Of a stretch of 64,000 nucleotides of DNA, positions 12,597-60,728 are shown piece by piece. The position numbers and the translations under genes are program-made. The notes under the pieces were generated by a model, which was given only the letters and a program-made list of their open reading frames with translations, ran no database searches and was not told the origin of the DNA. Within the stretch, counting starts at the first letter, position 1. The number at the start of each line of letters is the position of its first letter. The DNA is from an uncultured Anaerolineae bacterium (GTDB taxonomy: Bacteria > Chloroflexota > Anaerolineae > J036 > Brachytrichaceae): the NCBI GenBank assembly GCA_937927775.1, contig CALBEF010000031.1, forward strand, positions 62,001 through 126,000. Reading direction: 5' to 3'.

Positions 12597-12666
12597 GTGT
12601 TGCGTATTACGTATTGCGTATTGCGTGTTGCGTGTTGCGTATTGGGTGTTGCGTATTGGGTGTGGG
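12597..12666. repeat. Degenerate 7-bp tandem repeat, 10 units (GTATTGC/GTGTTGC)
   Basis: Units read directly: gtgttgc gtattac gtattgc gtattgc gtgttgc gtgttgc gtattgg gtgttgc gtattgg gtgtggg; fills the spacer between two permease genes. Confidence 0.95.
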
Positions 12667-12667
12667 G

Positions 12668-13654
12668 TTATTCGAGGCGAATGCGGGGGTCAACCCAGGC
12701 CAGCAACAGATCGGCGACGAGATTGCCCACCAGCAACATGATGGTGAGAAAGACGATGCAGGTGCCGGCCAGATACATGTCCAGCTTGCGCAGCGAATCC
12801 ACAAACACCGGCCCGATGGTCGGCAGGTTGAGCACAATCGCCACGAGCGACGAGCCGACGATGATGCTGGGGAACACATCAGAGCCGAGAATCGTGATGA
12901 GCGGGTTGATGGCGATGCGGACGGCGTGCTTCCAGGTCACGGTGCGATTCTTCAGGCCGCGCGCGCGGGCGGCTTCGACGAAGGGCTGACCCAGCGTGTC
13001 GAGCAGGTTGCCGCGCATGATGCGCACCAAACCGCCGATGCCGGTGACGGCGCTGATGAGCGCCGGAATCCACAAGTGCCCCAGCAAATCCATGACCTTT
13101 GCGAAGCTCCAGGGGGCGTCCTGAAACTGCGGCGAAAACAGGCCGGTCACTTCCAGGTTGAAGACGATGATGGCGAAGTACATGATGATCAGCGCCAGCA
13201 GGAAGCCGGGCATGCCCAGGCCGATGAAGCTGACCACCGAGATGATCTGGTCGCCGGGAGAATATTGTTTGACCGCCGAGTACACACCGAGCGGAATCGC
13301 CAGCGCCCAGGTCAGCACCGTGGTGGCGATGGCAAGAATCACCGTGTAGCCCAGCCGGGCGCCGAGTATTTCGCTGACAGGGCGCTCGAACTCAAAGGAT
13401 TCGCCGAAGTCGCCGCGCAGGAAATTGCCGGCCCAGTTGAAGTAACGCTCCAGGAAAGGCTTGTCCAGCCCGTAGCGCGCACGCAGCATCTCAACTTGCT
13501 GTTCGGCGCTGCGGTCGCCTCTGGCGCGCAGTTGCTGAACCCTCTGCGTCAGGTAGTCGCCGGGCGGCAACTCAATGATCACAAAGCTGACAAAGGACAC
13601 CAGCACAACCATGATCAATGCGTAGCCGACGCGGCGAATGAGGTAGTTCACCAT
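12668..13654 (-). CDS. ABC transporter permease (OppB/DppB-like)
   Basis: 328 aa MVNYLIRRVGYALIMVVLVSFVSFVII... with RARGLKNRTVTWKHAVRIAINPLITILG EAA loop. Confidence 0.92.
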   Translation of the reverse strand: MVNYLIRRVGYALIMVVLVSFVSFVIIELPPGDYLTQRVQQLRARGDRSAEQQVEMLRARYGLDKPFLERYFNWAGNFLRGDFGESFEFERPVSEILGARLGYTVILAIATTVLTWALAIPLGVYSAVKQYSPGDQIISVVSFIGLGMPGFLLALIIMYFAIIVFNLEVTGLFSPQFQDAPWSFAKVMDLLGHLWIPALISAVTGIGGLVRIMRGNLLDTLGQPFVEAARARGLKNRTVTWKHAVRIAINPLITILGSDVFPSIIVGSSLVAIVLNLPTIGPVFVDSLRKLDMYLAGTCIVFLTIMLLVGNLVADLLLAWVDPRIRLE

Positions 13655-13780
13655 CTGCGTTTCTCCTTATTAACACATCCCTGCTTGGTAAGGGATTGGC
13701 TCTCCTGCAGCTTCCAGGCGTGCGGAAGAGTTGTAGCACGAACTTATAACAAGACGAGAGCACCCTGGCTATAAATCGCA

Positions 13781-13822
13781 AGTGGCGGATGGTTGGTGAT
13801 CTGATCCAATCCATCCGCCACT
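13781..13822. promoter_or_regulatory. 12-bp perfect inverted repeat (hairpin) between the substrate-binding protein gene and the first permease gene
   Basis: AGTGGCGGATGG ... CCATCCGCCACT. Confidence 0.8.
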
Positions 13823-13915
13823 CGCGCGCAGCGGGGTATTAGCCGGTTAATCGAGGTAGGGTGGGGTGTTCAGTCATGCCCCGCGCATCTTCTCTCTATC
13901 GCTCAGCGCGAGGCA

Positions 13916-16000
13916 CTATTTGTCCATCCACCACGTCGCGGCGATCTGGTTACCAGGTGTCGCCGGCGCCCACGGGCCGACCACGCCATAGTCCAGAATG
14001 TTGCGCATGTAGTTCTTGACGATAACGGGCATAGGCTGGTCGCCGGCTACGCCGATGACAAATGGCCCTTCCTCCGCAATCAGGTCGATGGCCTCCCAGA
14101 CCACACGGTGGCGATCCTCAACACTCCTGGTCGCCAGGCCTTTCTCGAACAGCGCTTGCAGCTTGGCTGCCGGGCTGTCGGGTTCGGGTTGTATGCCGCA
14201 CGAGTACGGCTGGCCCTCAACAAGCCTGCACTTGTCTTTACCCTCCTCATACCACCGCCCCGCCAGCGGGAACATGTAGCGGTTGACGAGCGGGAAGATC
14301 CAATCCGGATACGTCCAGATATCAATCTCAGAGATGTGCGCCGCTTTCAACATGTATTGGCCTTCGGCAACTCGCGTGCCTTCTTCGGGCTGGCCCTCCA
14401 TGTTGTTCACACGCACCTTGATGCCCAGATTCTTCTCCCACTGCGCCTTGGCCTCCGCTGCGGCATCCACTTGCACTTTCAGGCTGCCGCCCCAGGCGGT
14501 CACGTCAAGCACTAGCTCAAACGGTTTGCCGCCAGGCAGGGTGCGGAAGCCATCAGCGCCTTTCTGCATGCCGATCTCGTCAAGCAACTTGTTGGCTGTC
14601 TCGGCGTCGAAGTCGGCGTAGGAGCTGGCCCACTTCTGGTACGCCTCTTGGCCCTGCGGGCCGGCGAAGTGCCATGACTGTGGGCTGATGGTCGCGCCCT
14701 TGGCCTCGCCGATGCCGCCCCATGCTACGTCAATGATGCGCTCGCGATCCAAGCCCAAGGATAGCGCCTGGCGGAAGCGCTTGTCGCGCAGCAGCGCACG
14801 AATTTCCGCTGCCATCTCCGGCGTGTCGTCCGGGTAGTTCTTGCCGCCCTCGACGTAGTCCTGGTTGACCATATAGCCCGGCCAGGCGCCGGCGCCATTC
14901 ATATAGTTCTCCAGGAAGCGATAGTTATTGGCCTGCGCTCTCTCGCGCAGCAACGGAATTTCATTCGGTCCGCCGCAAACACGGAACGCTGTGTCATAGC
15001 GGCCCTGCGCGCAGTTGAGGATGCGCACCTGCTCATCTGACACAATCTCTACGGCGATCGCGTCGATGTACGGCAACTGGTTGCCCTCTTCATCCACGCG
15101 CCAGTAGTACGGGTTGCGGGTGAACTTGTAGTTCTGGCCGTCAGTAGACAATTCGGTCAAGCACCAGGCGAACAGGCAAGGATACCCCGGCGTCTGCCAC
15201 CACTGGTCGGCCTTCTGTAGATCGTCATAGGTCTTGTCCGAGGCGTACTTGGGGTGGAACTGCTTCAGATAATGGGCTGGCTTCATCATGGAGTTGGCGA
15301 ACTCCCAGTAGCCCTGCGCCATGTAGAACGGGTTGACCCACATGGCCTTGTCCGACTTCCAGATCAGAGTGAAGTCGTCGGGGAACTCCATGTCGATCAA
15401 CGACCCATCCGACTTGCGCAACCAGGCCGGTCGCGCGACGCTGCCTTTGTAGTCCTCATCCTTGACCATGTCCTCCCACCAGAACTTCCAGTCGGCCGTG
15501 GTGTAAGGCTGGCCGTCGGACCACTTCAGGCCCTTGCGCAGTTTGAGCGTGAAGGTCTTGCCGTCTTCAGACCATTCATAGCTCTCGGCAAGGCCCGGCT
15601 CGTAACCGGTGAGATCGGCTTTCCACTTAATCGGCGCTTCTACAGCGAAGTAAAGCAGCACATTGCCGACACCCGGCCACCAGCTCGCTGTCTGGATCGT
15701 GCCGCCGTACTTGCCGATCGCCTCTCGCACTGGGGTTACGACCGGATCGGCTGGCAAACGCTCATCGACCGGGGGCAACTGACCATTCTTAACGAGCTCA
15801 GCCAGGTCAGGGGCCTCGTTATATTTAGATGGGGTAGTTGCCGGCACCGGCGGCTCTGTCGGAGCAACCATCGCAGGAGTCGGAGTGGGCGGTGCCGGCG
15901 CTGCTGTGGGCGATTCAGGGGCAGGCGCGGGGCCGCCGCAACCTGCTGCCAGCAAGGCTGCGCTGACGAGCAGGCCAATTCGTATCTTCGCATTCCTCAT
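13916..16000 (-). CDS. Extracellular solute-binding lipoprotein of family 5 (Opp/Dpp SBP), 694 aa
   Basis: Lipobox LLAAGCGG; Pro/Thr linker; YEPGLAESYEWSEDGKTFTLKLRKGLKWSDGQPYTTADWKFWWEDM SBP_bac_5 signature. Confidence 0.92.
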   Translation of the reverse strand: MRNAKIRIGLLVSAALLAAGCGGPAPAPESPTAAPAPPTPTPAMVAPTEPPVPATTPSKYNEAPDLAELVKNGQLPPVDERLPADPVVTPVREAIGKYGGTIQTASWWPGVGNVLLYFAVEAPIKWKADLTGYEPGLAESYEWSEDGKTFTLKLRKGLKWSDGQPYTTADWKFWWEDMVKDEDYKGSVARPAWLRKSDGSLIDMEFPDDFTLIWKSDKAMWVNPFYMAQGYWEFANSMMKPAHYLKQFHPKYASDKTYDDLQKADQWWQTPGYPCLFAWCLTELSTDGQNYKFTRNPYYWRVDEEGNQLPYIDAIAVEIVSDEQVRILNCAQGRYDTAFRVCGGPNEIPLLRERAQANNYRFLENYMNGAGAWPGYMVNQDYVEGGKNYPDDTPEMAAEIRALLRDKRFRQALSLGLDRERIIDVAWGGIGEAKGATISPQSWHFAGPQGQEAYQKWASSYADFDAETANKLLDEIGMQKGADGFRTLPGGKPFELVLDVTAWGGSLKVQVDAAAEAKAQWEKNLGIKVRVNNMEGQPEEGTRVAEGQYMLKAAHISEIDIWTYPDWIFPLVNRYMFPLAGRWYEEGKDKCRLVEGQPYSCGIQPEPDSPAAKLQALFEKGLATRSVEDRHRVVWEAIDLIAEEGPFVIGVAGDQPMPVIVKNYMRNILDYGVVGPWAPATPGNQIAATWWMDK

Positions 16001-16419
16001 GATTCTTTCTTCCTCCTTTACTCATTTACTCATTCATAGGTGTTCCTGAGTATGAGAAACCACTTTGGATTTTCCTACCCCTGCGCACCAGCATGGCGCG
16101 CCGAGCAGGAAACCGATCACAAGAGACAGTTGCAGATATCGCTGGTTGGTTCACCTCCTGAAGCAATAAAAAATATTGGGGGCGCTCATGTTCCAATTGG
16201 GAGGCGTCAAGACCGACTGATTTGCGGTCGTTTGTCTTGCGTGTGGAGTGGTCGCCGCATTTGCAAAACACATACCGGGCTGGCAATGCCGCAAACAGCC
16301 ATCTGCCTCAGCTTGGAAGAGCATGACCGACCTGATTATAGCGCTGGCTCAGAGATCACACCAGACGCACGGCAGGCGCGCCTCTGCGTCTAAACCTTTG
16401 TCATTGCAGGAGGCAGCGC

Positions 16420-16454
16420 TGTAATCGTTTACATCGGGAGTGTAAACAATTACA
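16420..16454. promoter_or_regulatory. Pair of LacI-family-type operators, 21 bp apart centre to centre
   Basis: TGTAATCGTTTACA (16420-16433) and TGTAAACAATTACA (16441-16454). The second is the reverse complement of the first with one change. The first matches the cre-like LacI consensus TGWAANCGNTNWCA. Confidence 0.7.
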
Positions 16455-16549
16455 TGGCGTCTGTCAAGCGCGACAGCGACCATGCGACCATGCGACATTT
16501 CGCGTTGCGCCTGGCGTCCTCCGGGTGATAAGATTTAACACGAGCATCC

Positions 16550-17545
16550 GTGGTTGACTCTTCCAATCTCGATACCCTGACCGGTCTGATTGCCAGCGCA
16601 TTCGGCGTTGATCGGGCTTCTGTGCGACTCACCCCCATCCCCACCGGCAAGCACAACCGCTCGCACTACGTCGAAAGCGCCGCCGGCTCTCATGTGCTGC
16701 GCGTCGCCCCGCCCGACGACGCCGGCTTCCTCTTCTACGAAGCGCGCATGATGCGCCAGGAGCCGGCGCTGCATGCGCTCATCCGCCGGCGCCTGCCCAT
16801 TCCCGTCGCCGACGTGGTTCATCATGACTTCACCCGCGCGCGCTTCGACCGCGACTATCTCATCATGACCGCGCTGCCCGGCATCCCGCTCAGCGCCGCA
16901 ACCAATCTGACCCGGGCCCGGCTGGATCGCGCACTGCGCCAGACCGGCGAGTGCCTGCGCCAATTGCATTCGCTAACCGCCGAGGACTGCCTGGGCCGGC
17001 CCATGCACGGCTACATCGGCGCGCATCAGCCCATGACGCCGCAGCCCACCTGGTGGGAGGCGTTCCGCGTCATGTGGCACAAGCTGCTGGATGATGTGGT
17101 GGCCTGCGAATCCTACTCGCCGGAGGAAGCCCAGGCCATGCGCGATCTGCTCGATTACTACCGGCGCTATTTCGACCGGCCTGTAACCCCGCGCCTGCTG
17201 CACATGGATGTGTGGGGCCAGAACATCCTGGTGGATGACGCCGGCAACGTCACCGGCCTGGTGGACTTCGACCGCGCGCTGTGGGGCGATGTGGAGATCG
17301 AGTTTGCCGTGCTCGATTACTGCGGCATCAGCGAGCCGGCCTTCTGGCAGGGCTACGGCGCCGCGCGCGATACATCCACTGCCGCAGCGGTGCGCCGGCA
17401 GTTCTATCTGCTCTACGAAGTGCAGAAATACATGCCCATCGAAGTGTGGCGGCGCAACAACCCCGCCGCCGCGCAGCGTTACAAGCGACAATGTCTGGCG
17501 CTGGCGGCGCAATTGTTGCCGTCCGGCGCCTTGTCCGCAAACTGA
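16550..17545 (+). CDS. Phosphotransferase of the aminoglycoside phosphotransferase (APH)/kinase-like superfamily
   Basis: 331 aa; LLHMDVWGQNILVDDAGNVTGLVDFDRALWGD catalytic loop; GTG start. Confidence 0.85.
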   Translation: MVDSSNLDTLTGLIASAFGVDRASVRLTPIPTGKHNRSHYVESAAGSHVLRVAPPDDAGFLFYEARMMRQEPALHALIRRRLPIPVADVVHHDFTRARFDRDYLIMTALPGIPLSAATNLTRARLDRALRQTGECLRQLHSLTAEDCLGRPMHGYIGAHQPMTPQPTWWEAFRVMWHKLLDDVVACESYSPEEAQAMRDLLDYYRRYFDRPVTPRLLHMDVWGQNILVDDAGNVTGLVDFDRALWGDVEIEFAVLDYCGISEPAFWQGYGAARDTSTAAAVRRQFYLLYEVQKYMPIEVWRRNNPAAAQRYKRQCLALAAQLLPSGALSAN

Positions 17546-17560
17546 TGCGCCCCGGACGCA

Positions 17561-17655
17561 AAGACTCAAAGCCAACGCAGCGCAGTCAGGGGTGCGCGTA
17601 GTTCTCAGCCCGGATTCTTTGAGTCTTCGTGGTTCGATTCCTGAGAGCGAACCAC
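17561..17655. terminator. Nested inverted repeats between convergent genes (likely bidirectional terminator region)
   Basis: AAGACTCAAAG (17561-17571)/CTTTGAGTCTT (17617-17627), and GTGGTTCG (17629-17636)/CGAACCAC (17648-17655). Confidence 0.6.
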
Positions 17656-17699
17656 ACAGAAACCAGGAACACAAAGCGGCATCGGAATAGACCCGTGCG

Positions 17700-18803
17700 C
17701 TACAGCAACTGTAGCAGCCGCGCCGTCACCAGATCGACCTCCGTGTCGCTCAGCGTCATGGGGTTGAGAAAGATGCCGCGTTCGCCGGCAGCGGCCACCG
17801 AAATCGCCGGCGTGCCGGCCATAAGCGCCTGCATCAGCCCATCCCGCGTCAATCGCGCGCCGTCTTCCAGAATCACCTCGCAGCGCGGCAACGGCTGGCC
17901 GGCTTCGTTGGGAAACGAGCGTTGCGCCCGTACGCCGGCCAATCGATTCAGCGTCTGACACCAGCCGGCCACCACCCTCTCGTCGCGCTGGCAGCGCGCC
18001 TCGTGATCGAGCGACAGATAGCGCCTGACCGCCGCCAGCAGGCCAACCATCTCTTCCTTGCCCACCTTCATCGGCCGGCCAATCCCGGCGTTGGGATTGC
18101 CGATCGGGCGCATGGCCTCGATCAGCCACTGCTGCCCGACGATCAACCCGCTGGCCTGCGGCCCGCGCAGGTCCTTGCCGCCGCTGAAAATGGCGCACGC
18201 CGCGCCCATCTGCGTGAAGCGCCACAGGTTCTCCACTGGTGGCAATTGCGCTGCCGCGTCCACGATCACCGGCACGCCGCGCGCCGCGCACAGCTCAATC
18301 ACCTGCGCCAATGGCAGATCGCCGCGCCCGGTCATCGCGCCCTGAAACCACACAAACATGCCCGTGCGATCGGTGATCGCTGTTTCCAGATCGGCCGGCG
18401 CGCACGTCGCGCCATCGCCGACCTCAATGATCTTCACGCCCGCGTTGCGGATGGCGTGGTCGTAGCGGTTGCGGTGCGCCTTGAACACCAGCGCCTCGTT
18501 CTTCATGCCGGTTGTGTCGGGCAGCCGGGCGATGCGTTCGCGCTCGCCGCGCGTGACGCACGCCGCGACAGCCAGCACAATGCCGGCTGCCGCGCCGGTC
18601 GCCACATAGGCTGCTTCGTTGCGGGTCAGCTCGGCCAGCTTTGCGCCCACGCGCATTTGCAGGTCATCCAGATCGATGAACCAGCCCGCCGCGTCCTGCA
18701 TGGCGGCGATAACTTCCGGCGGCATGATGCTGCCGCCCAGCCGCGTCAATGTGGCGTGCGCGTTGATGACCTGCTTCACGCCCAACTCATCGTAGATGCT
18801 CAT
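17700..18803 (-). CDS. SelA-like / class V aminotransferase-fold PLP-dependent protein
   Basis: 367 aa MSIYDELGVKQVINAHATLTRLGGSIMPPEVIAAMQDAAG... with SGGKDLRGPQASGLIVG PLP-Lys region. Confidence 0.85.
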   Translation of the reverse strand: MSIYDELGVKQVINAHATLTRLGGSIMPPEVIAAMQDAAGWFIDLDDLQMRVGAKLAELTRNEAAYVATGAAAGIVLAVAACVTRGERERIARLPDTTGMKNEALVFKAHRNRYDHAIRNAGVKIIEVGDGATCAPADLETAITDRTGMFVWFQGAMTGRGDLPLAQVIELCAARGVPVIVDAAAQLPPVENLWRFTQMGAACAIFSGGKDLRGPQASGLIVGQQWLIEAMRPIGNPNAGIGRPMKVGKEEMVGLLAAVRRYLSLDHEARCQRDERVVAGWCQTLNRLAGVRAQRSFPNEAGQPLPRCEVILEDGARLTRDGLMQALMAGTPAISVAAAGERGIFLNPMTLSDTEVDLVTARLLQLL

Positions 18804-18852
18804 GATTCACTTTCCCTTGCCGCAGACAGGTGAAGCTTTGTGGTTCATTCTC

Positions 18853-20170: not shown

Positions 20171-20247
20171 TGAATCCCCAATCGCCAATCGTCACTCCTC
20201 AATCGTCAATCGTCAATCCTCAATCCTCAATCGTCAATCGTCAATTG
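20171..20247. repeat. Degenerate 7-bp tandem repeat, 11 units (TCAATCG), followed by inverted-orientation AATTGACAATC
   Basis: Direct reading of the divergent intergenic region. Confidence 0.95.
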
Positions 20248-20284
20248 AATTGACAATCCCCCCTCGCCAATTGACAATCGCGCC

Positions 20285-27283: not shown

Positions 27284-29439
27284 CTTCGGACCGTGACGGC
27301 CCGGGCGCTGCGCCGACGGGCGTCTGTCTGCGTGTCATGCCACTCCATCGCCTCCCCCGGCTTCTGGCGCTGTTCGAGAGCAGCCTGGTTCGCGTATCGA
27401 TTGCCGTGCTGCTCGTTCTGGCCGGCTACGCCGTGCTGTTCGTTTTCTTCTCTCGTGGCTATGCCGACCGCACGGTGGAGTTTCGGCGCCAGGAGTTGAA
27501 ACGGCTGGCGCAGATCGCGTTGAGCGTGGTCGAGCCGGCGCGCCAGCAACAGCGCGCCGGCCAGATTTCCCCGGAGCAGGCGCGCATGATCGGGCGCGAC
27601 CTGATCCGACGGATGTCCTACACCGACGAAGCCGGCAGCAACTATCTTTTCATGGGTAGTTACGACGGCGAAGTGTGGCTGCTGCCGTACAGCCCGCCGC
27701 GCGAGGGCGCCAATGAATTCGATCTGGTGGACGCCAGCGGTAAGAACATTACCCGGGAGCTGATTCGCGCGGCCACAAGCGCGTCTGGCGAGGGATATGT
27801 GGAGTATGACTACCCGCCGCCGGGCAGCGCCATCCCGCAGCGCAAGATCTCATACGTGGTCGGCATCCCGGAATGGGATAGTTATATCGGCACGGGCATG
27901 TACCTGGGCGACATCGAGGCGCGCACCCGGAACTATTTTCTGAACGCGCTGGTGCTCACACTTGGATTGACGGTGCTGATCTTCCTTGCCATCTTCATGA
28001 CCCTGCTGCCAACCGCCCGCTCGTACACCACATTACTGCGGTTGTTCGAGCATATCAGCCGCAACCCGGATGATGTGCCGGCAGTGCCGGTCGATCAATT
28101 CAGCGCCGGCACCGAGGGGTGGCGGCTGTTGACCGGCTTCCAAACCATGCTCGAACGCATCAAGGTCAACCGCCAGAAACTCCAGGAGAGCGAGCGGCAA
28201 CTGGAGCGGCGCGTCTCCGAGCGCACCCGCGAACTGTCCAATCTGCTGCAAGTCTCGCACGATGTCGCTTCGACGCTGGAGCTGGAACCTTTGCTCGGCC
28301 TGATCCTGGATCGCCTGAAGTCGGTGATCGATTACACCAGTTGCGCGATCTTTCTGTTGCAGGATGGGCGGCTGGTCAGTCTGGACTATCGAGGCCCGGC
28401 GCCGCGCGAGCAGATGCTGGCGCTGCGCCTGTCCAGGCCGTCTGCCGCCGAAGAGGTGTTTCGGCTGCGCGCGCCGGTGATCATCTCGGACGTGCGCGGC
28501 GATCACCGGCTGGCCCACGTATTTCGCCGGTCGGCCGGCGAGCACATGGACACTTTGTTTGGCTATATCCATTGCTGGATGGGCGTTCCGCTGATGGTGC
28601 AGGATCGCATGATCGGCGTGCTCAGCCTCGATCACAGCCAGGCCGGCTATTACACCGCCCGGCACGCTTCGGTGGCACTGGCAATCGCCAACCAGGCCGC
28701 CATTGCCATCGAGAACGCGCGCCTGTATCAGGAATCGCATCAGCTCGCCGCTCTGCAGGAGCGGCAACGGCTGGCCCGTGAGTTGCACGACTCGGTGTCG
28801 CAGGCGCTCTATGGCATTGCGCTGGGGGCGCGCACGGCCCGCCGGCTGCTCGACTCGGCCCAGGCCGAAGATCAGCGCGCCGCGCCTGCGGACTCTGTCC
28901 GAGCGGACTCTGTCCGAGACGACGCGTTGCGGCGCAAACTGGCCCAGCCGCTGGACTATGTGTTGCAACTTGCCGATGCCGGCATGGCTGAGATGCGCGC
29001 CCTTATCTTTGAGTTGCGCCCGGAATCGCTTCAGAACGAGGGGCTGGTGGCCGCGCTTTCCAAGCACGGCGCGTCGATGCAGGCTCGCCACCATATCGCC
29101 GTGGAGACCGAGTTCTGCGAAGAACCGCCTTTGTCTTTCGACTGCAAAGAGGCGCTGTATCGCATTGCCCAGGAAGCGTTGCACAATATCGTCAAGCATG
29201 CCAAAGCGACGCGGGCGAGCATTCGGCTGGCGAACGATGGCAACGGCGTCATGCTCGAAGTCCGGGACAACGGCGCCGGCTTTGACCCCAACGGCGACTT
29301 CCCCGGCCATCTCGGTCTCAGGTCGATGCGCGAGCGGATCGAAAAGCTCGGCGGGACGCTGACGATCGACAGCGCGCCGGGCCGGGGCGCCAGTGTTGTG
29401 GCGCGCTTGAGCTGTTCCCGGCGCCCGGCCAAAGGTTAA
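27280..29439 (+). CDS. NarL-type sensor histidine kinase (Cache sensor, GAF, HisKA_3, HATPase)
   Basis: Cache-like periplasmic segment between two TMs, GAF-like region, RQRLARELHDSVSQALYGI H-box, DNGAGFDPNGDFPGHLGLRSMRER. Start GTG 27280 (overlaps the RR stop) or ATG 27337. Confidence 0.93.
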   Translation: MTSDRDGPGAAPTGVCLRVMPLHRLPRLLALFESSLVRVSIAVLLVLAGYAVLFVFFSRGYADRTVEFRRQELKRLAQIALSVVEPARQQQRAGQISPEQARMIGRDLIRRMSYTDEAGSNYLFMGSYDGEVWLLPYSPPREGANEFDLVDASGKNITRELIRAATSASGEGYVEYDYPPPGSAIPQRKISYVVGIPEWDSYIGTGMYLGDIEARTRNYFLNALVLTLGLTVLIFLAIFMTLLPTARSYTTLLRLFEHISRNPDDVPAVPVDQFSAGTEGWRLLTGFQTMLERIKVNRQKLQESERQLERRVSERTRELSNLLQVSHDVASTLELEPLLGLILDRLKSVIDYTSCAIFLLQDGRLVSLDYRGPAPREQMLALRLSRPSAAEEVFRLRAPVIISDVRGDHRLAHVFRRSAGEHMDTLFGYIHCWMGVPLMVQDRMIGVLSLDHSQAGYYTARHASVALAIANQAAIAIENARLYQESHQLAALQERQRLARELHDSVSQALYGIALGARTARRLLDSAQAEDQRAAPADSVRADSVRDDALRRKLAQPLDYVLQLADAGMAEMRALIFELRPESLQNEGLVAALSKHGASMQARHHIAVETEFCEEPPLSFDCKEALYRIAQEALHNIVKHAKATRASIRLANDGNGVMLEVRDNGAGFDPNGDFPGHLGLRSMRERIEKLGGTLTIDSAPGRGASVVARLSCSRRPAKG
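28888..28917. repeat. 15-bp in-frame tandem duplication GCGGACTCTGTCCGA x2
   Basis: Encodes ADSVRADSVR, just after the H-box of the histidine kinase; unit is itself near-palindromic (CGGAC tct GTCCG). Confidence 0.95.
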
Positions 29440-30977: not shown

Positions 30978-32603
30978 GTGGCACAAGCACTCTACCGCAA
31001 GTGGCGTCCCCAGTCCTTCGACGAAGTGGTTGGGCAGGAGCACGTCACGGTAACACTGAAAAACCAGATCGCAAGCGGCCGCGTCGGCCATGCCTACCTG
31101 TTTGTCGGCTCGCGCGGCTGCGGCAAGACCACCACGGCGCGCATCCTGGCCAAAGAGATCAACCTGCAGGGGCTTGACCCGGCCAATCCGCACACGGCGC
31201 AACTGGCCGAGGCGATCAGCGAAGGCCGCGCCCTCGATGTGATCGAGTTCGACGCGGCCACGCACACGCAGGTCGAGAAGATGCGCGAGATCATCGATAA
31301 GGTGGTCTTTCAGCCGAACGAGTTGCGCTACAAGGTCTACATCATCGACGAAGTGCACATGCTTTCTGTGTCGGCGTTCAACGCGCTGCTGAAAACGCTG
31401 GAGGAGCCGCCGCCGCACGTGGTGTTCATCCTCGCCACCACAGACCCGCAGAAAATTCCGGCCACAGTGCTGTCGCGCTGCCAGCGCTTCAACTTCAAGC
31501 GCGTGCCGACGCGGCTGATTGTCGGGCGGCTGCGCCAGATCTGCGAGGCCGAGGGGATCGAGGCCGACGATCACGCCCTCACTCTGATTGCGCGCCAGGC
31601 GACGGGCGCCATGCGCGACGCCATCAGCCTGCTCGATCAACTGGCATCCTCCAGCTCGACGCGCATCTCGGCCGATGACGTGCGCGAGGCATTGGGCGCC
31701 ACCGATACGGCCACTGTGCGCGGCGTGATGGATGGGTTGACGCAGCGCAACCCGGCTGCCGGGTTGGACGCGATTCAGTCGGCCATCGACCAGGGCGCGG
31801 ATGCGCGCCAACTGGCCCGCCAGATGGTGGACTACCTGCGCGCGATTTTGCAAGCGAAGATCGCGCCGCAGGAGGCGCAGGCCGGCCAGGCCGATTTGGG
31901 CGAGGCGGAACGGCTGGAGCTTGCAGACTACGCCGCCGGCATGAGCGCCGGCATGATTCTGCGCAGCATCCGCGCCTTCAGCGCGGCGGTGAATGACATG
32001 CGCGGCAACATCGACGCCCAACTGGCGCTGGAACTGGCGTTCCTGGAATGTGTGACTGAAACAGGGGACACAGCGGGTGACGTTCGCGCCGATGCGCGGC
32101 GTCCTGAAGTGACCGAACAACCGCCGGCGCGTTTGGGCGCAGACGCGCGACCGGAATCTGAAACCCAAAACCCAAAATCCAGAATCCGGAATACGCCAGA
32201 CAACGGGCCGGTCACGCCCGCCCCTGCGCCAGGCAGCGCCGGCGACAGCGCGGACAAAATCGGCCGGGAGGGTGAATCCAGTCTCGATGCGCTGCGCGCG
32301 GTCTGGAAGCAGTTGATCCAGGAAGTGAACGCCAGCAACAAGCCGGCGGCGGCGCTGCTGCGATCGTGCCGGCCACAGGCCATCGAGGGCGACGTGGTGC
32401 GCATTCAGGCCGACCATGACTTGTTCAAGACACGCCTGGAAGACCCCAGGAACAAGCTGGCGGTCGTCACTGCGTTGAACCGGCTGCTGAATGGCAGGTA
32501 CAGCCTGGTGGTATCGTCGGCCCGGCAGCCGGAGCCGGAACCCGGCGAGGATCCGCTGGTCAAGGCGGCGCAACGGCTGGGTGGCCGGGTGCGTGAAGGA
32601 TGA
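30978..32603 (+). CDS. dnaX: DNA polymerase III subunit gamma/tau
   Basis: MAQALYRKWRPQSFDEVVGQEHVTVTLKNQIASGRVGHAYLFVGSRGCGKTTTARILAKEI...VYIIDEVHMLSVSAFNALLKTLEEPP; GTG start. Confidence 0.95.
   Translation: MAQALYRKWRPQSFDEVVGQEHVTVTLKNQIASGRVGHAYLFVGSRGCGKTTTARILAKEINLQGLDPANPHTAQLAEAISEGRALDVIEFDAATHTQVEKMREIIDKVVFQPNELRYKVYIIDEVHMLSVSAFNALLKTLEEPPPHVVFILATTDPQKIPATVLSRCQRFNFKRVPTRLIVGRLRQICEAEGIEADDHALTLIARQATGAMRDAISLLDQLASSSSTRISADDVREALGATDTATVRGVMDGLTQRNPAAGLDAIQSAIDQGADARQLARQMVDYLRAILQAKIAPQEAQAGQADLGEAERLELADYAAGMSAGMILRSIRAFSAAVNDMRGNIDAQLALELAFLECVTETGDTAGDVRADARRPEVTEQPPARLGADARPESETQNPKSRIRNTPDNGPVTPAPAPGSAGDSADKIGREGESSLDALRAVWKQLIQEVNASNKPAAALLRSCRPQAIEGDVVRIQADHDLFKTRLEDPRNKLAVVTALNRLLNGRYSLVVSSARQPEPEPGEDPLVKAAQRLGGRVREG
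32154..32195. repeat. 7-bp-period repeat (6 units) embedded in the dnaX coding sequence
   Basis: gaatctg aaaccca aaaccca aaatcca gaatccg gaatacg, encoding ESETQNPKSRIRNT. Confidence 0.85.
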
Positions 32604-32607
32604 TCCC

Positions 32608-32656
32608 GATTTTGGATTTTGGATTGACGATTGCTGATTGACAATTGACGATCGAC
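32608..32656. repeat. Degenerate 7-bp repeat (7 units) between dnaX and ebfC
   Basis: gattttg gattttg gattgac gattgct gattgac aattgac gatcgac. Confidence 0.95.
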
Positions 32657-32676: not shown

Positions 32677-33030
32677 ATGGCAAAAGGACGACGAGCAGAT
32701 TGGACGCCGCGCGGGCCGGCCAATCCGCAGGCCGACATGATGAGCAGGCTGCAGAAAATGCAGGAGGACATGCGCAAGACCCAGGAGGAGCTGGAGCATG
32801 AGATCGTCAACGTGACGGCTGCCGGCGGCGCCATCACCATCGCCATCACCGGCCACCAGCGCGTCCAAAGCATCAAAATCGATCCCAGTCTGGCCGATCC
32901 CAGCGACATGGGCATGCTGGAAGATGCGCTGGTGGCTGCCGTGAACGAGGCGATCCTTGCGTCTCAAACACACTCGGCCCAGCGCCTCGAATCGGTGACC
33001 GGCGGCCTGAACATTCCGGGGCTGATGTGA
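32677..33030 (+). CDS. YbaB/EbfC nucleoid-associated protein
   Basis: SRLQKMQEDMRKTQEELEHEIVNVTAAGGAITIAITG; position between dnaX and recR. Confidence 0.93.
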   Translation: MAKGRRADWTPRGPANPQADMMSRLQKMQEDMRKTQEELEHEIVNVTAAGGAITIAITGHQRVQSIKIDPSLADPSDMGMLEDALVAAVNEAILASQTHSAQRLESVTGGLNIPGLM

Positions 33031-33056
33031 TTGAGTCATTGGGTCATTGGGCGATT
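33031..33056. repeat. 8-bp-period repeat (TTGAGTCA TTGGGTCA TTGGGCGA) between ebfC and recR
   Basis: Direct reading. Confidence 0.85.
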
Positions 33057-33110
33057 GGCGCAAGACAGCCATTTGCCAACGCGTCGATGATTCGATGCCG
33101 CGCTGAATGA

Positions 33111-45903: not shown

Positions 45904-47430
<1,527 letters not shown>

Positions 47431-47433
47431 GGG

Positions 47434-47473
47434 ATTGAGTCATTGGGTGATTGAGTCATTGAGTCATTGACTC
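47434..47473. repeat. 8-bp-period repeat ATTGAGTC (5 units) between atpD and atpC
   Basis: attgagtc attgggtg attgagtc attgagtc attgactc. Confidence 0.95.
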
Positions 47474-47496
47474 AATCGCCAAGTGGGCAGGTTCTG

Positions 47497-49911: not shown

Positions 49912-49927
49912 GAGCGGGATTGTACTC

Positions 49928-49983
49928 CAGACATCAGACGACAGGCTGTCTGTTATCTGTGCTCTGTAATCTGCAATCTCAGA
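49928..49983. repeat. 7-bp-period repeat with an orientation switch (CAGACAT x3 then TCTGTTA x5)
   Basis: cagacat cagacga caggctg tctgtta tctgtgc tctgtaa tctgcaa tctcaga; overlaps the stop codon of the M50 gene. Confidence 0.85.
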
Positions 49984-53286: not shown

Positions 53287-53293
53287 ATAAACG

Positions 53294-54457: not shown

Positions 54458-54545
54458 GAGGCCGTCCCTTGTTCTGGCCGGCAGTCTATCACTCTGCGGC
54501 GCGCTGCTGTGACAGCGCGCCGCCAGTGGATTGAATCGATCTGTG

Positions 54546-55031
54546 ATGAACCCGCAACCTTCCCTGATTGATTGGACCGGCGCGCCTGTATCGCGCGCGC
54601 CTGATCGCCTGATGGCTTCAGCCAGCGCCATCATATTCGACGATGCCGGGCGCGTATTGCTCATGCTGCGCGCCGACAACCAGCACTGGGGCATTCCCGG
54701 CGGGCGCGCTGAAATCGGCGAGTCGATCGCGCAGACTGTCGTCCGTGAAGTAGCCGAGGAGACCGGCCTGCGTGTGTCGGTCAAGCGCCTGATCGGCGTC
54801 TACTCTGACCCGGCGCGTTACAGCATTGCCGCGTATCCCAACGGCGACACGGTTCAATTCGTCAACGTGTGCTTCGAGTGTGTCGTCGAAGGCGGCGCGC
54901 TCTGTGGATCGGAAGAAGGGCGCGAGCTGAGATTCTTCGACCCGCAGCAGTTGCCAGCCAATACGCTTCTGGCGCACCGGCTGCGCATCGACGACGCCCT
55001 GGCCCGGCGCGAAGCGGCGTTCATCCGATAG
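54546..55031 (+). CDS. NUDIX hydrolase
   Basis: GIPGGRAEIGESIAQTVVREVAEETGLRV Nudix box. Confidence 0.95.
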   Translation: MNPQPSLIDWTGAPVSRAPDRLMASASAIIFDDAGRVLLMLRADNQHWGIPGGRAEIGESIAQTVVREVAEETGLRVSVKRLIGVYSDPARYSIAAYPNGDTVQFVNVCFECVVEGGALCGSEEGRELRFFDPQQLPANTLLAHRLRIDDALARREAAFIR

Positions 55032-55040
55032 ATTTCCGAA

Positions 55041-55075
55041 TAGATTCCCGGAGTCTTGAAGGCTCCGGGAATCTA
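55041..55075. terminator. 13-bp perfect hairpin between convergent NUDIX and YceI genes
   Basis: TAGATTCCCGGAG ... CTCCGGGAATCTA. Confidence 0.85.
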
Positions 55076-55086
55076 TAGCGTCTGCC

Positions 55087-55842
55087 CTAACGCGCCACAA
55101 ACTCCAGAGTCAGTTTGGCGTCGTCTTCGGCGCGCAGGATGCCGGCGATGCTCGGCGCCGCAAAGTTGAAACTGCTCATCTTGATCTGGGTTGTGGCCGT
55201 GCCAACGAGCTGGCTGCCATCGTAACGCGCTACCACGTCCCAGGTGACCGGGATGGTGGTGTCGCGCACGGTCATGTCGCCGGTCATTTTGAAAGTCAGC
55301 TCCTGCCCGATCTCGTAGCTGGCGGGAAGCCCTTCATAGGCGGTGGGGACGAATTTGGCGAGCGGATACTTTGCCGACTCCAGCCAGTTGCCACGAATGG
55401 CGCTGTCGCGGCGGTCGCTGTCTGATTTGAGCGCGCTGATATCGACGGTGATTTCGCCCACGATGGTGTTGACGGGGTTTTGAGGGTCGAGCGTAATGTC
55501 GCCGTTGACGATCGTGGTCACGCCGATGGCTGTCGCCAGCTTGTTGTTCTGATTGAGGAACGTTTCGTCCACGGCATACGAAGCTTTGGATTCATCCGGG
55601 ACAATCTTCAAGGTGATGGTGGACGCGCCGGCAGGGGCCGGCTCGGCAGCGGCAGTTGCCTCAGCCGGGGCGGCGCTTTCGGTTGGGGTTGCGGCCGGTG
55701 CAACCGTGGGCGCTGCGGGTTGCGATTGTGTTGTTGCGGTCGGCGCGGCAGTTGGCGCCGGCGCAGCGCCACATGCGCTCAGCGCAATGGCGCCGGCAAG
55801 AACGCTCCCGATCATCATCCGATACGCTGCTGATTGCTTCAT
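55087..55842 (-). CDS. YceI-family lipoprotein
   Basis: Lipobox ALSACGAA; low-complexity Ala/Thr/Pro linker; YceI domain (DPQNPVNTIVGEITVDISALKSDSDRRDSAIRGNWLESAKYPLAKFVPT). Confidence 0.9.
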   Translation of the reverse strand: MKQSAAYRMMIGSVLAGAIALSACGAAPAPTAAPTATTQSQPAAPTVAPAATPTESAAPAEATAAAEPAPAGASTITLKIVPDESKASYAVDETFLNQNNKLATAIGVTTIVNGDITLDPQNPVNTIVGEITVDISALKSDSDRRDSAIRGNWLESAKYPLAKFVPTAYEGLPASYEIGQELTFKMTGDMTVRDTTIPVTWDVVARYDGSQLVGTATTQIKMSSFNFAAPSIAGILRAEDDAKLTLEFVAR

Positions 55843-55893
55843 CTCTCTACACTCCTTATTCCGTCATGGCGTGACGCACGGTGAATCTGCCCT

Positions 55894-56106
55894 TCAGTCC
55901 AACTCGGGCATTGTGAGGCCGGCGTCGCGCAAAACAATGAGTTTGCACACGCTTGTTAGCCTCGCGTGAATCTTTCCGGGCAGTCTGATGAGAATAACGA
56001 GCGAGAGAGTGAGCGGAAGGTGAGAACTCCCTGAGAGATTGTAAGGCGTTCTGTCCGGCTGCTGATGCTTCAGCGCCGCAATGATGCGCTGACGGTTGTT
56101 CATCAT
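55894..56106 (-). pseudogene. Truncated N-terminus of a uroporphyrinogen decarboxylase-family (URO-D/MtaA-like) gene
   Basis: MNNRQRIIAALKHQQPDRTPYNLSG matches the usual N-terminal pattern of URO-D family proteins, then loses similarity after about 25 aa; ribosome-binding-like GGGGGAAAAC upstream. Confidence 0.45.
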
Positions 56107-56145
56107 GTTTTCCCCCTTGCGAATAGGTGCCGGACGCCCAGGATC

Positions 56146-57507
56146 TTATCCACGTCGAGACGATCCTCCATCCCCGGCCAGCCGCTCCATGTATGCCCGA
56201 ATCGGCGGCACGGCCAGCAGCCGGTCGCGGAAGAAGTCGTTGGCGATGTCGATCAGCTCGGTGCGCGCCGTCTCCGCCAGATCGACAAAAGCCTGGCCGG
56301 TCTGGCGCAGCGACAGCGCCTTGCGGAGTTGTAGCAGGCGGCCGGCGATCGCCTTCTCTTCCTCGCCTTCCAGCGCGTCGATCACGGTGAAGATGAGCTG
56401 GTCGGCCTGGGCAATGAGGTTTTCCAGCGCCATGTCCTGACCCAGGTGCAGCGCCTCATCCAGCGAGCGCACCAATGCCCAGCCCTGATAAAGCGCCGCC
56501 GCCGGCTCGTCGAACAGTTCGCGCACATAGGCCGCCTCGACGTACTGGCCGTTCAGCCGAAAGATGTTGTACAGCCGTTTGGCCACCTTGCCATAGTTCA
56601 CGTCCTCGGCCAGATATTTGCGCACTTCCTTTTCCAGTTGGCCGATGTAGTGATCGACGGCGTCCGCCGCAACCTGTTTGGCCAGTTTGGCGAAGATGGG
56701 GATCGACGCCGCCTCCAGATAGACTTCCTGGAAGTACGGATCGAGATAGCCGTCCAGGGGCGTGATCGCGCCGTCGGGAGCTTCCCAGGTCACGTCGAAC
56801 ATATTGCTGGCGTTGGCCAGCCGGCCGCGTTGCGGATCGGCGATGATCCAATCCATCTTGCACCAGCCGGGGTCCTGCGCCACCTCGTCCCACGTGATGA
56901 CAGCCGGCGCGCCGTCCAGTCGCTCGACTTCCACACGCCCGGCCTGCACTTCTTCCGCCGTCCAGCCGATGGAGCTGCCGGCCTTGAGCTTGCGCCCGTT
57001 GCGCATCACCTCATACGGGTAATTGCCGAAGCGCACCTGGATCAACTGATACGTCGGCCCCTTGAGCGTGCCCAGCGCCTTGTCGCGCAGCACGCGCGCC
57101 AGGATGCGGCAGGCTTCCTCGCGCGATAACGCGCGAATGTTCACCCGCTCAAAGTAGTCGGCGTCGCCGGGGTACGTCTGCACTTTGGATTGCGCCGCCG
57201 AGCCGGACAACGAAAGCGCCGTCTCGACCACGCCCGGCTCGTCGTAGATCTCCACCAGCCGGCCCACCTCGCGGAAATGCTCCAGCTCAGCCGGACTGAA
57301 GTCGAGCATGGTGATCTTGTGGCCGAAGACGCCGGACCGCGTGTCGTATTCCACCGCGTCGGCGCTATGTCCGACGGCCATGGCCGCCAGCCATTGCAGC
57401 GCCTCTTCCTCATCGATCTCGACGCCCATGCGCCGGGCTGATTCAATGATCTGCGCGAGTTCCTGTTGTGGCGTCGTGTGTCGTTCGGGTTGCGCTGCGT
57501 CGGCCAT
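56146..57507 (-). CDS. Conserved-looking protein of unknown function (about 453 aa)
   Basis: Long ORF from MADAAQPERHTTPQQELAQIIES; no recognisable family. Confidence 0.8.
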   Translation of the reverse strand: MADAAQPERHTTPQQELAQIIESARRMGVEIDEEEALQWLAAMAVGHSADAVEYDTRSGVFGHKITMLDFSPAELEHFREVGRLVEIYDEPGVVETALSLSGSAAQSKVQTYPGDADYFERVNIRALSREEACRILARVLRDKALGTLKGPTYQLIQVRFGNYPYEVMRNGRKLKAGSSIGWTAEEVQAGRVEVERLDGAPAVITWDEVAQDPGWCKMDWIIADPQRGRLANASNMFDVTWEAPDGAITPLDGYLDPYFQEVYLEAASIPIFAKLAKQVAADAVDHYIGQLEKEVRKYLAEDVNYGKVAKRLYNIFRLNGQYVEAAYVRELFDEPAAALYQGWALVRSLDEALHLGQDMALENLIAQADQLIFTVIDALEGEEEKAIAGRLLQLRKALSLRQTGQAFVDLAETARTELIDIANDFFRDRLLAVPPIRAYMERLAGDGGSSRRG

Positions 57508-57574
57508 TTGAGTTGTCCTCCTGATTTTGTGAAACCACGTCCCCTGAGCGCGCGGGCCGGCTGCGCGATTTCCA

Positions 57575-58324
57575 TCACGCCGCCATGACTGCTTTGGCAA
57601 AGCCGGCCACAAACAGGCGCGGCGCCACCGGCCCGGCGCAATTGAACACAATGCCGTCGATCGGCAGGCTCTGCAAATCGTCGAAGAGAATCTCTCCTGA
57701 AGTCTTCACCGTTTGCGCCTCAAACTTCAGCCCGCCATCGCCCCGATCGCGCAGAAATGCGTCGAGCGTGTCCGGCGCAGTGAATACGGCGGCCAGCTTG
57801 CGTCCGCGCTTGTCGGGGGCCAGGGTCAGCGCGCGCCCCTCGCCTTCGAGTCGTTGCGTCACAACGTAGAAGGCGTCGAAGCGTTTGATCAGACTGAGGT
57901 CGGGCTGCGGCGTTGCCAGGGTGCGCTCCACTTTCACGGCGCGCGCCCACTGCTGCAGCGCCGGGATCTGATCGCCGCGATAGTGCAATTCGGGCGGCGA
58001 GTACGCATTGACGCGGATGACATCCACTTCGTCGGGCAGGTTGGCAAATAACTCGTCGCCGGCGATGGTGATGAAGTGCTCGCCCAGCGCCCCTGCGCCG
58101 ACCGTTGCCAGACAGTCGGCATACGCCTGCCTGTCTGTGCACAGAAACAAATAGCGCTGCCCCGCGCTATCCTTCAGCCGCAACAGCGCAATCTGCCCGC
58201 GCTCGTCGCGCGCAGCCGGCACATGCCAGCCGGCGTGATCCAGGAACAGCCGGAGCAGCGCATGGCTCGACCGGCTGCCGTCCAGAGTGGCCTGCATGGC
58301 CTGCCGAAGATCGTGGTCGTTCAC
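57575..58324 (-). CDS. Hypothetical protein
   Basis: 249 aa; no recognisable motif; some resemblance to SseB-like N-termini (RYLFLCTDRQAYADC). Confidence 0.65.
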   Translation of the reverse strand: MNDHDLRQAMQATLDGSRSSHALLRLFLDHAGWHVPAARDERGQIALLRLKDSAGQRYLFLCTDRQAYADCLATVGAGALGEHFITIAGDELFANLPDEVDVIRVNAYSPPELHYRGDQIPALQQWARAVKVERTLATPQPDLSLIKRFDAFYVVTQRLEGEGRALTLAPDKRGRKLAAVFTAPDTLDAFLRDRGDGGLKFEAQTVKTSGEILFDDLQSLPIDGIVFNCAGPVAPRLFVAGFAKAVMAA

Positions 58325-58424
58325 GGGTCGTCATCCTGCCCACAGCAAAGGGCTCCGGGTGATTGTACCCATAAGAAATGCGCCCATCGCTGTCCGGTTC
58401 GTGGAGGTCGCGCGTTGCGCCGTC

Positions 58425-60161
58425 TCAATCTTCGATCGCCGCCTGTTGCGTGTTGATCTGCCGGATGATGGCCGGGTCGAACTTGGGCTTGCGCTGGCAG
58501 GTGTGCAACCCGTTCACCTCCTGCTCGACATCGGTGAGCTGGGTGTAGCAGAAGCCGAACATGTTCGGGTTGCAGAGCAGCGTCTCGGTCAGCGCCCTGT
58601 AGCGCGCCAGAAATTCCTCCGCGCTGCGCGGGCGGTTGCCGTAGCCCCAACTCCTGTCGTCGGACTGCCCGGGGTTCCACCAGATGCCGCCATACTCAGA
58701 GACGAAGTAGGGTTGTCCCTGATACGGCGCGTCGTGCTGGGGGAAATTGCGCCAGGCGTCTTCGCCCGTCAACTTGAACAGCTCGTAGGTCTGCGCAAAG
58801 CGAGCCGGGTCCTGCTCGTAGTTGTGGCAGTCGTAGATGTCGGTTTCGACGTGCACGTAGCCGCTGGCGTCGATGACGGGCCGCGTCTGGTCGAGCGTCT
58901 TGGTGATGCGGTAAACCGCGCGCAGGAGTTCCGGATTTTGATGGGTCGGCGTTTCGTTGAAGGGGCACCAGCCGATGATGGATGGGTGATTGAAGTCGCG
59001 CTCGACCACTTCGACCCACTCCGGCAGGAAGCGCTCCAGCGCCTGCGGGTGGGCCGTGTCGATCCCCCAACTGGGGAATTCGCCCCACACCAGGTAGCCC
59101 AGCCGGTCGGCCCAGCACAGGAATCGCTCTTCGAACACTTTCTGGTGCAGCCGGGCGCCGTTGAAGCCCATCGCCATCGATAGTTCGATATCCCGGCGCA
59201 GCGCCTCGTCGCTGGGCGCAGTGTAGATGCCATCGGGGTAGAAGCCCTGATCCAGAATCAGGCGTTGAAAAACCGAACGGTTGTTGATGAGCACACGCTT
59301 GCCCGCGATGCGCACATCGCGCAATCCGAAGTAGCTCTGCGCCTCATCCACGACCTGATCGCCCTGTCTGAGGGTGAACGTGATGTCGTACAGGAACGGG
59401 TCGCCCGGCCCCCACAGGCGCGGGTTGGGCACGCTCAACGTGAAGGCGCACTGCCCGTTGGCGCTGATGGCTGTTTCGGTCTGGCACACAGGCGCCCCCT
59501 CAGCCGAGACCGCCGCGCGCAGGGTCAACCCCTCGGCAGGGCCGTCGACGCCGATGTGGACGGTCAGGCTGCCCTGGTTGGGGTCTGTGAAGTAGCGCGG
59601 CCGGCGCAGACAGGTGGAGGGGACGGCCTCGAGCCACACGGTTTGCCAGATGCCGGTCGTGCGTGTGTAGAAGCAGGCGTAGGACTCGTAGCGATCGGAC
59701 TGCTTGCCGGTTGGCTGCAGGGGGCTGCGCGTGTCGTCGGCGGCGAACACAGTCAGCGTGTTCTGGCCAGGGGCGAGGTAAGGCGTGATTTCGAGCGTGA
59801 AGGAGGCATAGCCGCCCAGATGCCGGCCGGCCAACTGCCCATTGACCCACACCGTTGCGGCGTAGTCCACCGCGCCGAAGTGCGCCAGAATGCGCCTGCC
59901 CTGCCAGTCTTCGGGCAGGGTGAACGCGCGCCGGTACCACACGCCGGCCATGAAGTCCTTGTCGCCGATGCCGGACAGTTCACTTTCCGGGCAGAAGGGC
60001 ACGGTGATCGTCCCGGCGAACAGCTTGCCCTGGTGCAATCCACGCTCCAGGCCCGATAGTCCGGGGTCGATCTCGAATTCCCACGCGCCGTTCAGGTTCT
60101 GCCAATCGGCCCGAACCCACTGAGGGCGGGGATATTCCGGGCGAGGCGTTTCGTTTCCCAT
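58425..60161 (-). CDS. Glycoside hydrolase family 2 protein (beta-galactosidase/beta-glucuronidase-like)
   Basis: Jelly-roll plus TIM barrel; RRAFTLPEDWQGRRILAHFGAVDYAATVWVNG; WCPFNETPTHQNPELLRAVYRITKTLDQTRPVIDASGY. Confidence 0.93.
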   Translation of the reverse strand: MGNETPRPEYPRPQWVRADWQNLNGAWEFEIDPGLSGLERGLHQGKLFAGTITVPFCPESELSGIGDKDFMAGVWYRRAFTLPEDWQGRRILAHFGAVDYAATVWVNGQLAGRHLGGYASFTLEITPYLAPGQNTLTVFAADDTRSPLQPTGKQSDRYESYACFYTRTTGIWQTVWLEAVPSTCLRRPRYFTDPNQGSLTVHIGVDGPAEGLTLRAAVSAEGAPVCQTETAISANGQCAFTLSVPNPRLWGPGDPFLYDITFTLRQGDQVVDEAQSYFGLRDVRIAGKRVLINNRSVFQRLILDQGFYPDGIYTAPSDEALRRDIELSMAMGFNGARLHQKVFEERFLCWADRLGYLVWGEFPSWGIDTAHPQALERFLPEWVEVVERDFNHPSIIGWCPFNETPTHQNPELLRAVYRITKTLDQTRPVIDASGYVHVETDIYDCHNYEQDPARFAQTYELFKLTGEDAWRNFPQHDAPYQGQPYFVSEYGGIWWNPGQSDDRSWGYGNRPRSAEEFLARYRALTETLLCNPNMFGFCYTQLTDVEQEVNGLHTCQRKPKFDPAIIRQINTQQAAIED

Positions 60162-60254
60162 CTTGCTTTAATCCTCTTGTGATTGGATTTACGCATCATA
60201 GTCTGACTGCGGCAAGCGGGCGAAGCCGATGCTTTTGGGCAAACTGTCCGTCGT

Positions 60255-60656
60255 CTATGCGCGCAACAAGCCACGCTGAAGATAGACCCCGGCTGCTTCG
60301 CGCACCCAGCGGCCCGTCTCGACCGCCCCGTACATTTGTTCCAACCGCGTTGCCAGCGCAATGATCTCGGCATACGTCGAGCGCCCCGGCCGCAGCGCCT
60401 CGTACATCTGCAATAACTCATCGTTGGGCACGGCGGTCAACTCGGCTGCGCGCGCCAGCGCGTCGGCCAGTTGCGGGTAGCCGGCCTGCCGGGCAATCCG
60501 GGCCTGCGCGCGCAACGTCTCCGCGCTGATCTGCAAATCGGCAAAGCTGAGTTCGCCGGCCCGCAGCGCATCCGGCGTGATCCCCATCAACGGTCTCCCG
60601 CTGGCTGCCTGCACTCGCTCAGTGGCATTCTCGCCCAACGGATACGCATACTCCAT
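60255..60656 (-). CDS. B12-dependent diol/glycerol dehydratase small subunit
   Basis: YPLGENATERVQAASGRPLMGITPDALRAGELSFADLQISAETLRAQARIARQAGYPQLADALARAAELTAVPNDELLQMYEALRPGRST (PduE-like). Confidence 0.9.
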   Translation of the reverse strand: MEYAYPLGENATERVQAASGRPLMGITPDALRAGELSFADLQISAETLRAQARIARQAGYPQLADALARAAELTAVPNDELLQMYEALRPGRSTYAEIIALATRLEQMYGAVETGRWVREAAGVYLQRGLLRA

Positions 60657-60686
60657 ACGCTCTCCATCCTCCACCTTCAACCCGCC

Positions 60687-60728
60687 TCAATCGTCAATCG
60701 TCAATTGACAATCGTCAATTCCAAATCG
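60687..60728. repeat. 7-bp-period repeat (TCAATCG/TCAATTG, 6 units) between the dehydratase subunit genes
   Basis: tcaatcg tcaatcg tcaattg acaatcg tcaattc caaatcg. Confidence 0.95.

Follow-up and report, generated by a model that had tools for sequence, protein, structure and literature searches.

The stretch analysed here, referred to as the window, comprises 64,000 nucleotides (contig 31:62001-126000) of the 3.55 Mb draft genome of an uncultured Anaerolineae bacterium (G000, assembly ~93% complete), whose closest dnaX relatives, at ~42% identity, are Anaerolineae-type Chloroflexota. Its short intergenic spacers carry tandem arrays of degenerate heptads and octads. A preliminary description listed seven spacer arrays and an eighth inside dnaX, and Tandem Repeats Finder (TRF) reports a period of 7-8 at every one of these places; its calls for the dnaX and ebfC-recR arrays span 32161-32181 and 33030-33058. 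The arrays are part of a dispersed set that draws on a small vocabulary in fixed order and strand, was gained within the genus, adds DNA and persists between genes as well as in linkers or loops of proteins. For comparison we used two congeners, G002 (81% identity to G000) and G001, which at 74-75% identity to both serves as the outgroup.

The neighbouring genes were checked with Pfam, which confirmed two binding-protein-dependent permeases, YbaB/EbfC, RecR, the ATP synthase beta and epsilon subunits, an M50 peptidase and a fused dehydratase. Between the OppC-type and OppB-type permease genes lies an array of GTATTGC / GTGTTGC heptads (word family W2; 12600-12658, plus strand), antisense to both genes; the G002 ortholog of this spacer (12549-12667) has about one unit left (GCGTATTGCG). 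Two arrays of GATTGAC (W1; TCAATCG on the plus strand) are on the minus strand, at 20173-20245 and, at the 3' end of the fused dehydratase large/medium subunit gene, at 60687-60731. The neighbours of the former are divergent (amidohydrolase-type on the minus and PfkB-type on the plus strand). Three arrays cluster around dnaX. The first, of GGATTTT (W4; CCAAAAT on the coding strand; 32161-32187, minus strand), lies inside the gene near residue 394, in the stretch that separates domain III (ending at 357) from the C-terminal domain of tau (beginning at 432), and is absent from the dnaX orthologs of G001 and G002. The second, a W4-then-W1 composite (GATTTTGGATTTTGGATTGACGATTG..., 32608-32656, plus strand), occupies the dnaX-ebfC spacer, where G002 has a degraded copy and G001 none. 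The third, an octad array (ATTGAGTC/ATTGGGTC, W5; 33027-33058, plus strand), fills part of the ebfC-recR spacer; here G001 has no array and G002 matches at chance level only. Another W5 array (47427-47474, plus strand) ends in an inverted arm (TGACTCAATC) in the atpD-atpC spacer, which holds a hairpin in G001 and a single unit (GATTGAGTCG) in G002. ATCTGTT-type heptads (W6; 49949-49979, plus strand) between two minus-strand genes, one of them the M50 peptidase, form the weakest array of the set.

All 47 window spacers were dinucleotide-shuffled 200 times, and spacer scores were compared with the shuffle maxima. Among the seven listed spacers, six were matched by at most one shuffle maximum (none for either W1 array), and the weaker spacer 49912-49978 by five. 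A short octad array beyond the original list (CTCATTTA, 2.8 copies, 16010-16036, plus strand) lies in a spacer that scores above all 200. The contrast in composition that had been pointed out is real, with an array GC of 0.38-0.50 in a window of GC 0.636. An Rfam scan of the window matched no family. The window also holds two 15-base tandems inside genes: GACCGCGCGGTCACG (3904-3955, 3.5 copies, 97%; unit a multiple of 3) in the large gene 2488-6561, and the perfect two-copy GCGGACTCTGTCCGA (28888-28918) in the gene 27337-29439.

Word families, their order and their strand

Sampled stretches of G000 totalling 0.94 Mb were scanned with 21-base frames requiring at least 17 matches at each lag, the autocorrelation test that had been proposed. 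In spacers, 1818, 580 and 104 frames scored at periods 7, 8 and 9, respectively, against none after shuffling, and none scored at periods 2-6 in real or dinucleotide-shuffled sequence. The claimed period of 7/8 is thus borne out, but period 9 occurs too. With genes called by our own hexamer-score open reading frame (ORF) finder, the lag-7 rate in the first 0.66 Mb (91% coding) was 25.1 per kb in spacers vs 0.9 per kb in genes. Across the whole genome, exact two-unit W1 matches (TCAATCGTCAATCG) number 204 (reversed control 0) and RATTGNNRATTGNNRATTG occurs 372 times (control 2). Hundreds of heptad and octad arrays are dispersed throughout G000, and the earlier picture of a genome-wide, multi-word family resembling the short tandemly repeated repetitive (STRR) sequences, far denser in spacers than in genes and unusual for its background, holds. 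Other parts of it need adjustment. The arrays are mostly intergenic but not confined to spacers, and they are "spacer-filling" only loosely, covering a median 0.46 of the spacers that bear them. The preference for co-directional neighbours is modest, arrays being found in 75/336 co-directional, 11/95 divergent and 8/63 convergent spacers.

The words do differ, as had been noted, but they are not open-ended: about nine recurring families, with fixed strand and order, cover 179 of the 203 sampled arrays at scattered unlinked loci. Besides W1 GATTGAC, W2 GTATTGC, W4 GGATTTT, the octad W5 ATTGAGTC and W6 ATCTGTT, which correspond to the words first reported (TCAATCG, GTATTGC, GATTTTG, ATTGAGTC and TCTGTNN), these are W3 CTGACTA, the nonad W7 AAGGTTGGT, the octad W8 CACCCTGT and W9 GAGTGCT. 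GC per family ranges from 0.35 to 0.63 and is mostly below 0.50. Neighbouring arrays of different families no more than 150 bp apart share a strand in 61 of 71 pairs, and 41 of 42 same-strand pairs agree with the order W4, then W1/W5, then W7/W9/W2, then W6, then W3, with W8 after W1/W5; this count omits the interleaved W1/W5 pair (10:9). Single pairs are near unanimous (W6 before W3 5:0, W2 before W6 4:0, W1 before W8 4:0, W4 before W1 4:1). Inverted pairs within one family run plus-then-minus in 13 cases against one (P = 0.002). Array ends differ in phase. A replication-strand preference was considered as a cause and rejected, word strand following local GC skew in 58 of 109 cases (P = 0.57).

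The polarity extends to gene borders. In spacers, a gene border marks the start of W1, W4, W5 and W7 arrays and the end of W3 and W8 arrays (permutation P <= 0.0005), whatever the gene direction; the end of W3 lies a median 2 nt from the border (permutation P < 0.0005). This effect is partly trivial, since an array can provide the gene's stop codon, as negative array-to-border distances reflect, and since the reverse strand of W5 contains ATG, so that self-called ORF starts inside W5 arrays may shift this family apparently nearer to genes. Such positions raise the question of functional cis elements, for instance sites for a translational or transcript-stability regulator comparable to TAACTGA in Beggiatoaceae, an explanation we regard as unlikely. 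W3 would suit it, as it ends at the gene border, lies 2-19 nt ahead of the start codon in nine of 11 sense cases and in this position resembles TAACTGA (PMC4679880). However, W3 adjoins the stop codons of antisense genes too, W1, W2 and W5 have no orientation preference relative to genes, and about 30% of arrays are genic. A regulatory role is unsupported overall, because orientation to co-directional genes is even (54 sense, 45 antisense) and arrays vary between congeners at the core operons dnaX-ebfC, ebfC-recR and atpD-atpC; the W3 arrays near start codons still recall the TAACTGA case.

Arrays inside genes and between congeners

Of the 179 family arrays, 55 (~30%) lie within coding sequence. 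They were found in valine-tRNA ligase (valS, residues 687 and 721, between the catalytic and anticodon domains), glycine-tRNA ligase (glyS, 695), EPSP synthase (aroA, 218) and shikimate kinase/DHQ synthase (374), and further in the genes for GMP synthase, NuoG (nuoG), an FAD-linked oxidase and an MrfA-type helicase. Some of these arrays are located between domains; others fall within domain matches, there presumably in loops. Relative to word strand, genic arrays are antisense in 52 cases and sense in three, vs 45 and 54 in co-directional spacers (P = 2e-10). They are in frame, nearly always in the orientation that encodes a hydrophilic heptapeptide. For W1 and W3 the antisense bias arises because the sense reading brings stops. 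W4 and W2 are stop-free in both directions and still antisense in 20/20 genic cases, indicating that amino-acid content matters too (QNPKSKI and NTQYAIR vs GFWILDF). At 15 of 18 genic loci (P = 2e-5) and at 10 of 22 spacer loci, the lengths in G000 and G002 differ by a multiple of three. Purifying selection would thus clear arrays whose reading adds stop codons or hydrophobic heptapeptides to a protein, and arrays that disrupt its folded domains.

The congeners allow the history of single loci to be followed. At 42 loci orthologous to G000 arrays, with both flanks aligned, G002 has an array at 18, a weak one at six and none at 18; the array threshold was reached by 0/208 shuffled G002 spacers. 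Because G002 was assembled separately, this agreement excludes the assembly artefact that had been named as a concern. The outgroup lacks an array at all 13 loci where both flanks could be aligned, indicating that the spread was recent. In the reverse comparison, G000 carries a counterpart to 13 of 21 arrays of G002, and among loci chosen from G002 arrays G000 is longer at 14 and G002 at seven, which points to net growth in G000. Arrays without a counterpart in either congener (clusters 21, 85, 116, 117 and 123) use the same vocabulary. Differences at the same locus are gradual, with length and unit number varying between species. Words change in place as well: at L204:18477 four GTCAATC heptads in G000 are in register with four of CAAATC type in G002, and at L238:5788 CCAAAAT in G000 stands opposite CCACAAT in G002. 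Over the time span of a genus, arrays therefore appear, grow, shrink and change their words. At the G002 ortholog of L204:17006 (G002:C45 near 129400, L261), a 12-base tandem (about GGCGAACTATTC) stands where G000 has a W8 array.

Origin of the arrays

The explanation we favour, with somewhat better than even confidence, is that these are STRR-like repeats spread by copying from existing arrays, followed by local growth and shrinkage and by survival where proteins tolerate them. We hypothesize that arrays elsewhere in the genome seed new ones when short matches prime template switching or ectopic conversion in the course of repair, and that slippage or unequal exchange then lengthens, shortens and homogenises them locally. 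The fixed order would follow from the copying of pieces of composite arrays rather than of single words. Two unlinked loci, C10:44748 and C23:47994, have a non-periodic W1-W6 junction in common (GATTGACGATTAACGTCTGTCATCTGC), and two C15 loci 1.8 kb apart have >50 bp in common across a junction, as copying of composite pieces would give. No cellular function is necessary to explain the observations. As a conjecture, loops of 7-9 nt could evade mismatch repair, which would fit the lack of periods 2-6. Loss of mismatch repair itself was rejected as a cause, MutS_V being present in G000 and in 98 of 99 relatives.

A purely local origin, in which each array slips from a chance unit in its own spacer without inter-locus copying, is fairly unlikely. 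Several G002 orthologs indeed hold about one unit of the arrayed word, in the 12549-12667 and atpD-atpC spacers as described above and at C23:63928 (AGTAGTCAG), and a polymerase-footprint account of heptamer slippage, cited in PMC4692102, also favours this route. Yet although ~1170 distinct heptad words exist, unlinked loci reuse the same nine families in one order, and this reuse calls for a shared source. Moreover, the junction common to two unlinked loci is not periodic, and for some new arrays neither relative holds a seed (cluster 21).

Dispersal, polarity, composite build and the common junction would also suit a non-autonomous mobile element of MITE (miniature inverted-repeat transposable element) or REPIN type carrying the heptads. 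This we consider highly improbable: the arrays have no conserved non-periodic flank or terminal inverted repeat, their end phase is variable, and same-locus differences between species are gradual. None of the non-periodic 18-mers listed from at least three places is an array-linked conserved flank, hence no conventional element is indicated; the repeated 18-mers are parts of other elements. One dispersed palindrome, CAAGCCGCCGGGCTTGCC / GGCAAGCCCGGCGGCTTGCCCTACAGGCATACC, resembles a REP sequence or a terminator and occurs at up to 13 places in the G000 stretches, separate from the heptads. Heptads could also be written from a template by a reverse transcriptase akin to that of telomerase or retrons, which would suit the fixed words, order and strand. 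This is likewise very improbable, as RVT_1 was not found in G000, G001 or G002 (34 of 99 relatives have it), though an unrelated enzyme, or one missed in the ~93% complete assembly, may exist. These findings thus disfavour a regulatory function, reverse transcription, loss of mismatch repair and a mobile element of the conventional kind.

Several points weigh against spread by copying and recent gain. Copying between loci is deduced and was never directly observed. Most family-to-family junctions vary by locus, and the same order with varied joints means that composite copying is not the full explanation. The order was derived from the same counts that support it, the sole outside check being four cases in G089, a genome from a different family within the class and with a vocabulary mostly its own, in which W1-like arrays precede W8-like ones 4:0. 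Clusters 18 and 20 differ from G002 by substitutions at equal length and may represent decay in G002, not gain in G000. Finally, many stretches were picked from W1-bearing contigs, making the sampled densities upper estimates; the whole-genome exact counts are unbiased. It is conceivable, though quite unlikely, that a polar heptad-writing process lays down words of 7-9 bases in spacers and protein linkers in the set order GGATTTT, GATTGAC/ATTGAGTC, GTATTGC, ATCTGTT, CTGACTA, with a genome-specific vocabulary and with period and polarity common to distant bacteria.

Bacterial repeats of heptameric units are a long-standing observation for which no mechanism is accepted. An array-rich G000, an intermediate congener and a near-arrayless outgroup make gain, growth and decay traceable locus by locus, and any proposed mechanism must reproduce the constant order and strand. 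Essential proteins (aminoacyl-tRNA synthetases, EPSP synthase, NuoG and DnaX) receive an ongoing supply of new heptapeptide linkers from arrays that lie in frame.

Comparison with known repeat systems

Within the class, the vocabulary is largely genome-specific. Of 150 member genomes, 12 carry exact arrays of GGATTTT (control, 1) and 10 carry those of CTGACTA (control, 4), and sampled stretches of G023, G065 and G089 display a period-7/8 excess with other words. G089 further contains a very long mixed array of CATTTGC/CATTCGC (>300 bp; L213 15733-16074). In G003 and G019, of the same family as G000, the reversed control GTTARNN x3 was found 297 and 188 times, indicating another abundant heptad word there. 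Thirteen stretches of IMG/VR viral contigs (L291-L303) carry GGATTTT arrays. We found no account of such repeats in Chloroflexota in the open literature, most subscription papers being outside the search.

The nearest known kind is the cyanobacterial STRR, heptanucleotides reportedly described by Mazel et al. in 1990; the G000 arrays are of the same kind, not strict members, their host being a chloroflexotan. They share degenerate tandem heptads, a dominant period of 7, several words and many dispersed, mostly intergenic copies. Some families also have words in common: in a comparison of the W4-W1 array with plasmid records, 10 of 15 matches were cyanobacterial and one was from Chlorohelix (weak E-values, 2e-3 to 4), and GGATTTT and a CTGACTY word occur in the Nostoc and Sphaerospermopsis plasmid stretches of the same scan. 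They differ from STRRs, among which Calothrix heptanucleotides are cited in PMC4692102, in having octads and nonads mixed in and frequent in-frame arrays in housekeeping genes, and perhaps in their ordered multi-word composites, the order being scored in G000.

The TAACTGA direct repeats of Beggiatoaceae, cyanobacteria and Bacteroidetes have one dominant word, with similar words rare (MacGregor 2015, PMC4679880). They resemble the G000 arrays as dispersed heptads with a patchy distribution across phyla, and W3 is close in word and in start-codon proximity. In contrast, G000 has nine coexisting families, no single dominant word and no overall orientation preference in spacers, and a mostly forward position just upstream of start codons is true of only part of W3. 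The GGGNATC heptads of Xanthomonas and Nostoc have runs of at least three G per unit, stand preferentially in sets of four and fold into G-quadruplexes (Rehm et al. 2015, PMC4692102). They likewise stand between aligned genes with variable unit number and inverted pairs, whereas the main G000 words lack GGG. REPINs and other small dispersed repeats are alike in being short, dispersed and intergenic, and unlike in that no fixed boundary or palindromic core was found in the G000 arrays. Taken together, the kind of repeat is already known, while the ordered vocabulary, the invasion of genes and the host phylum appear to be new.

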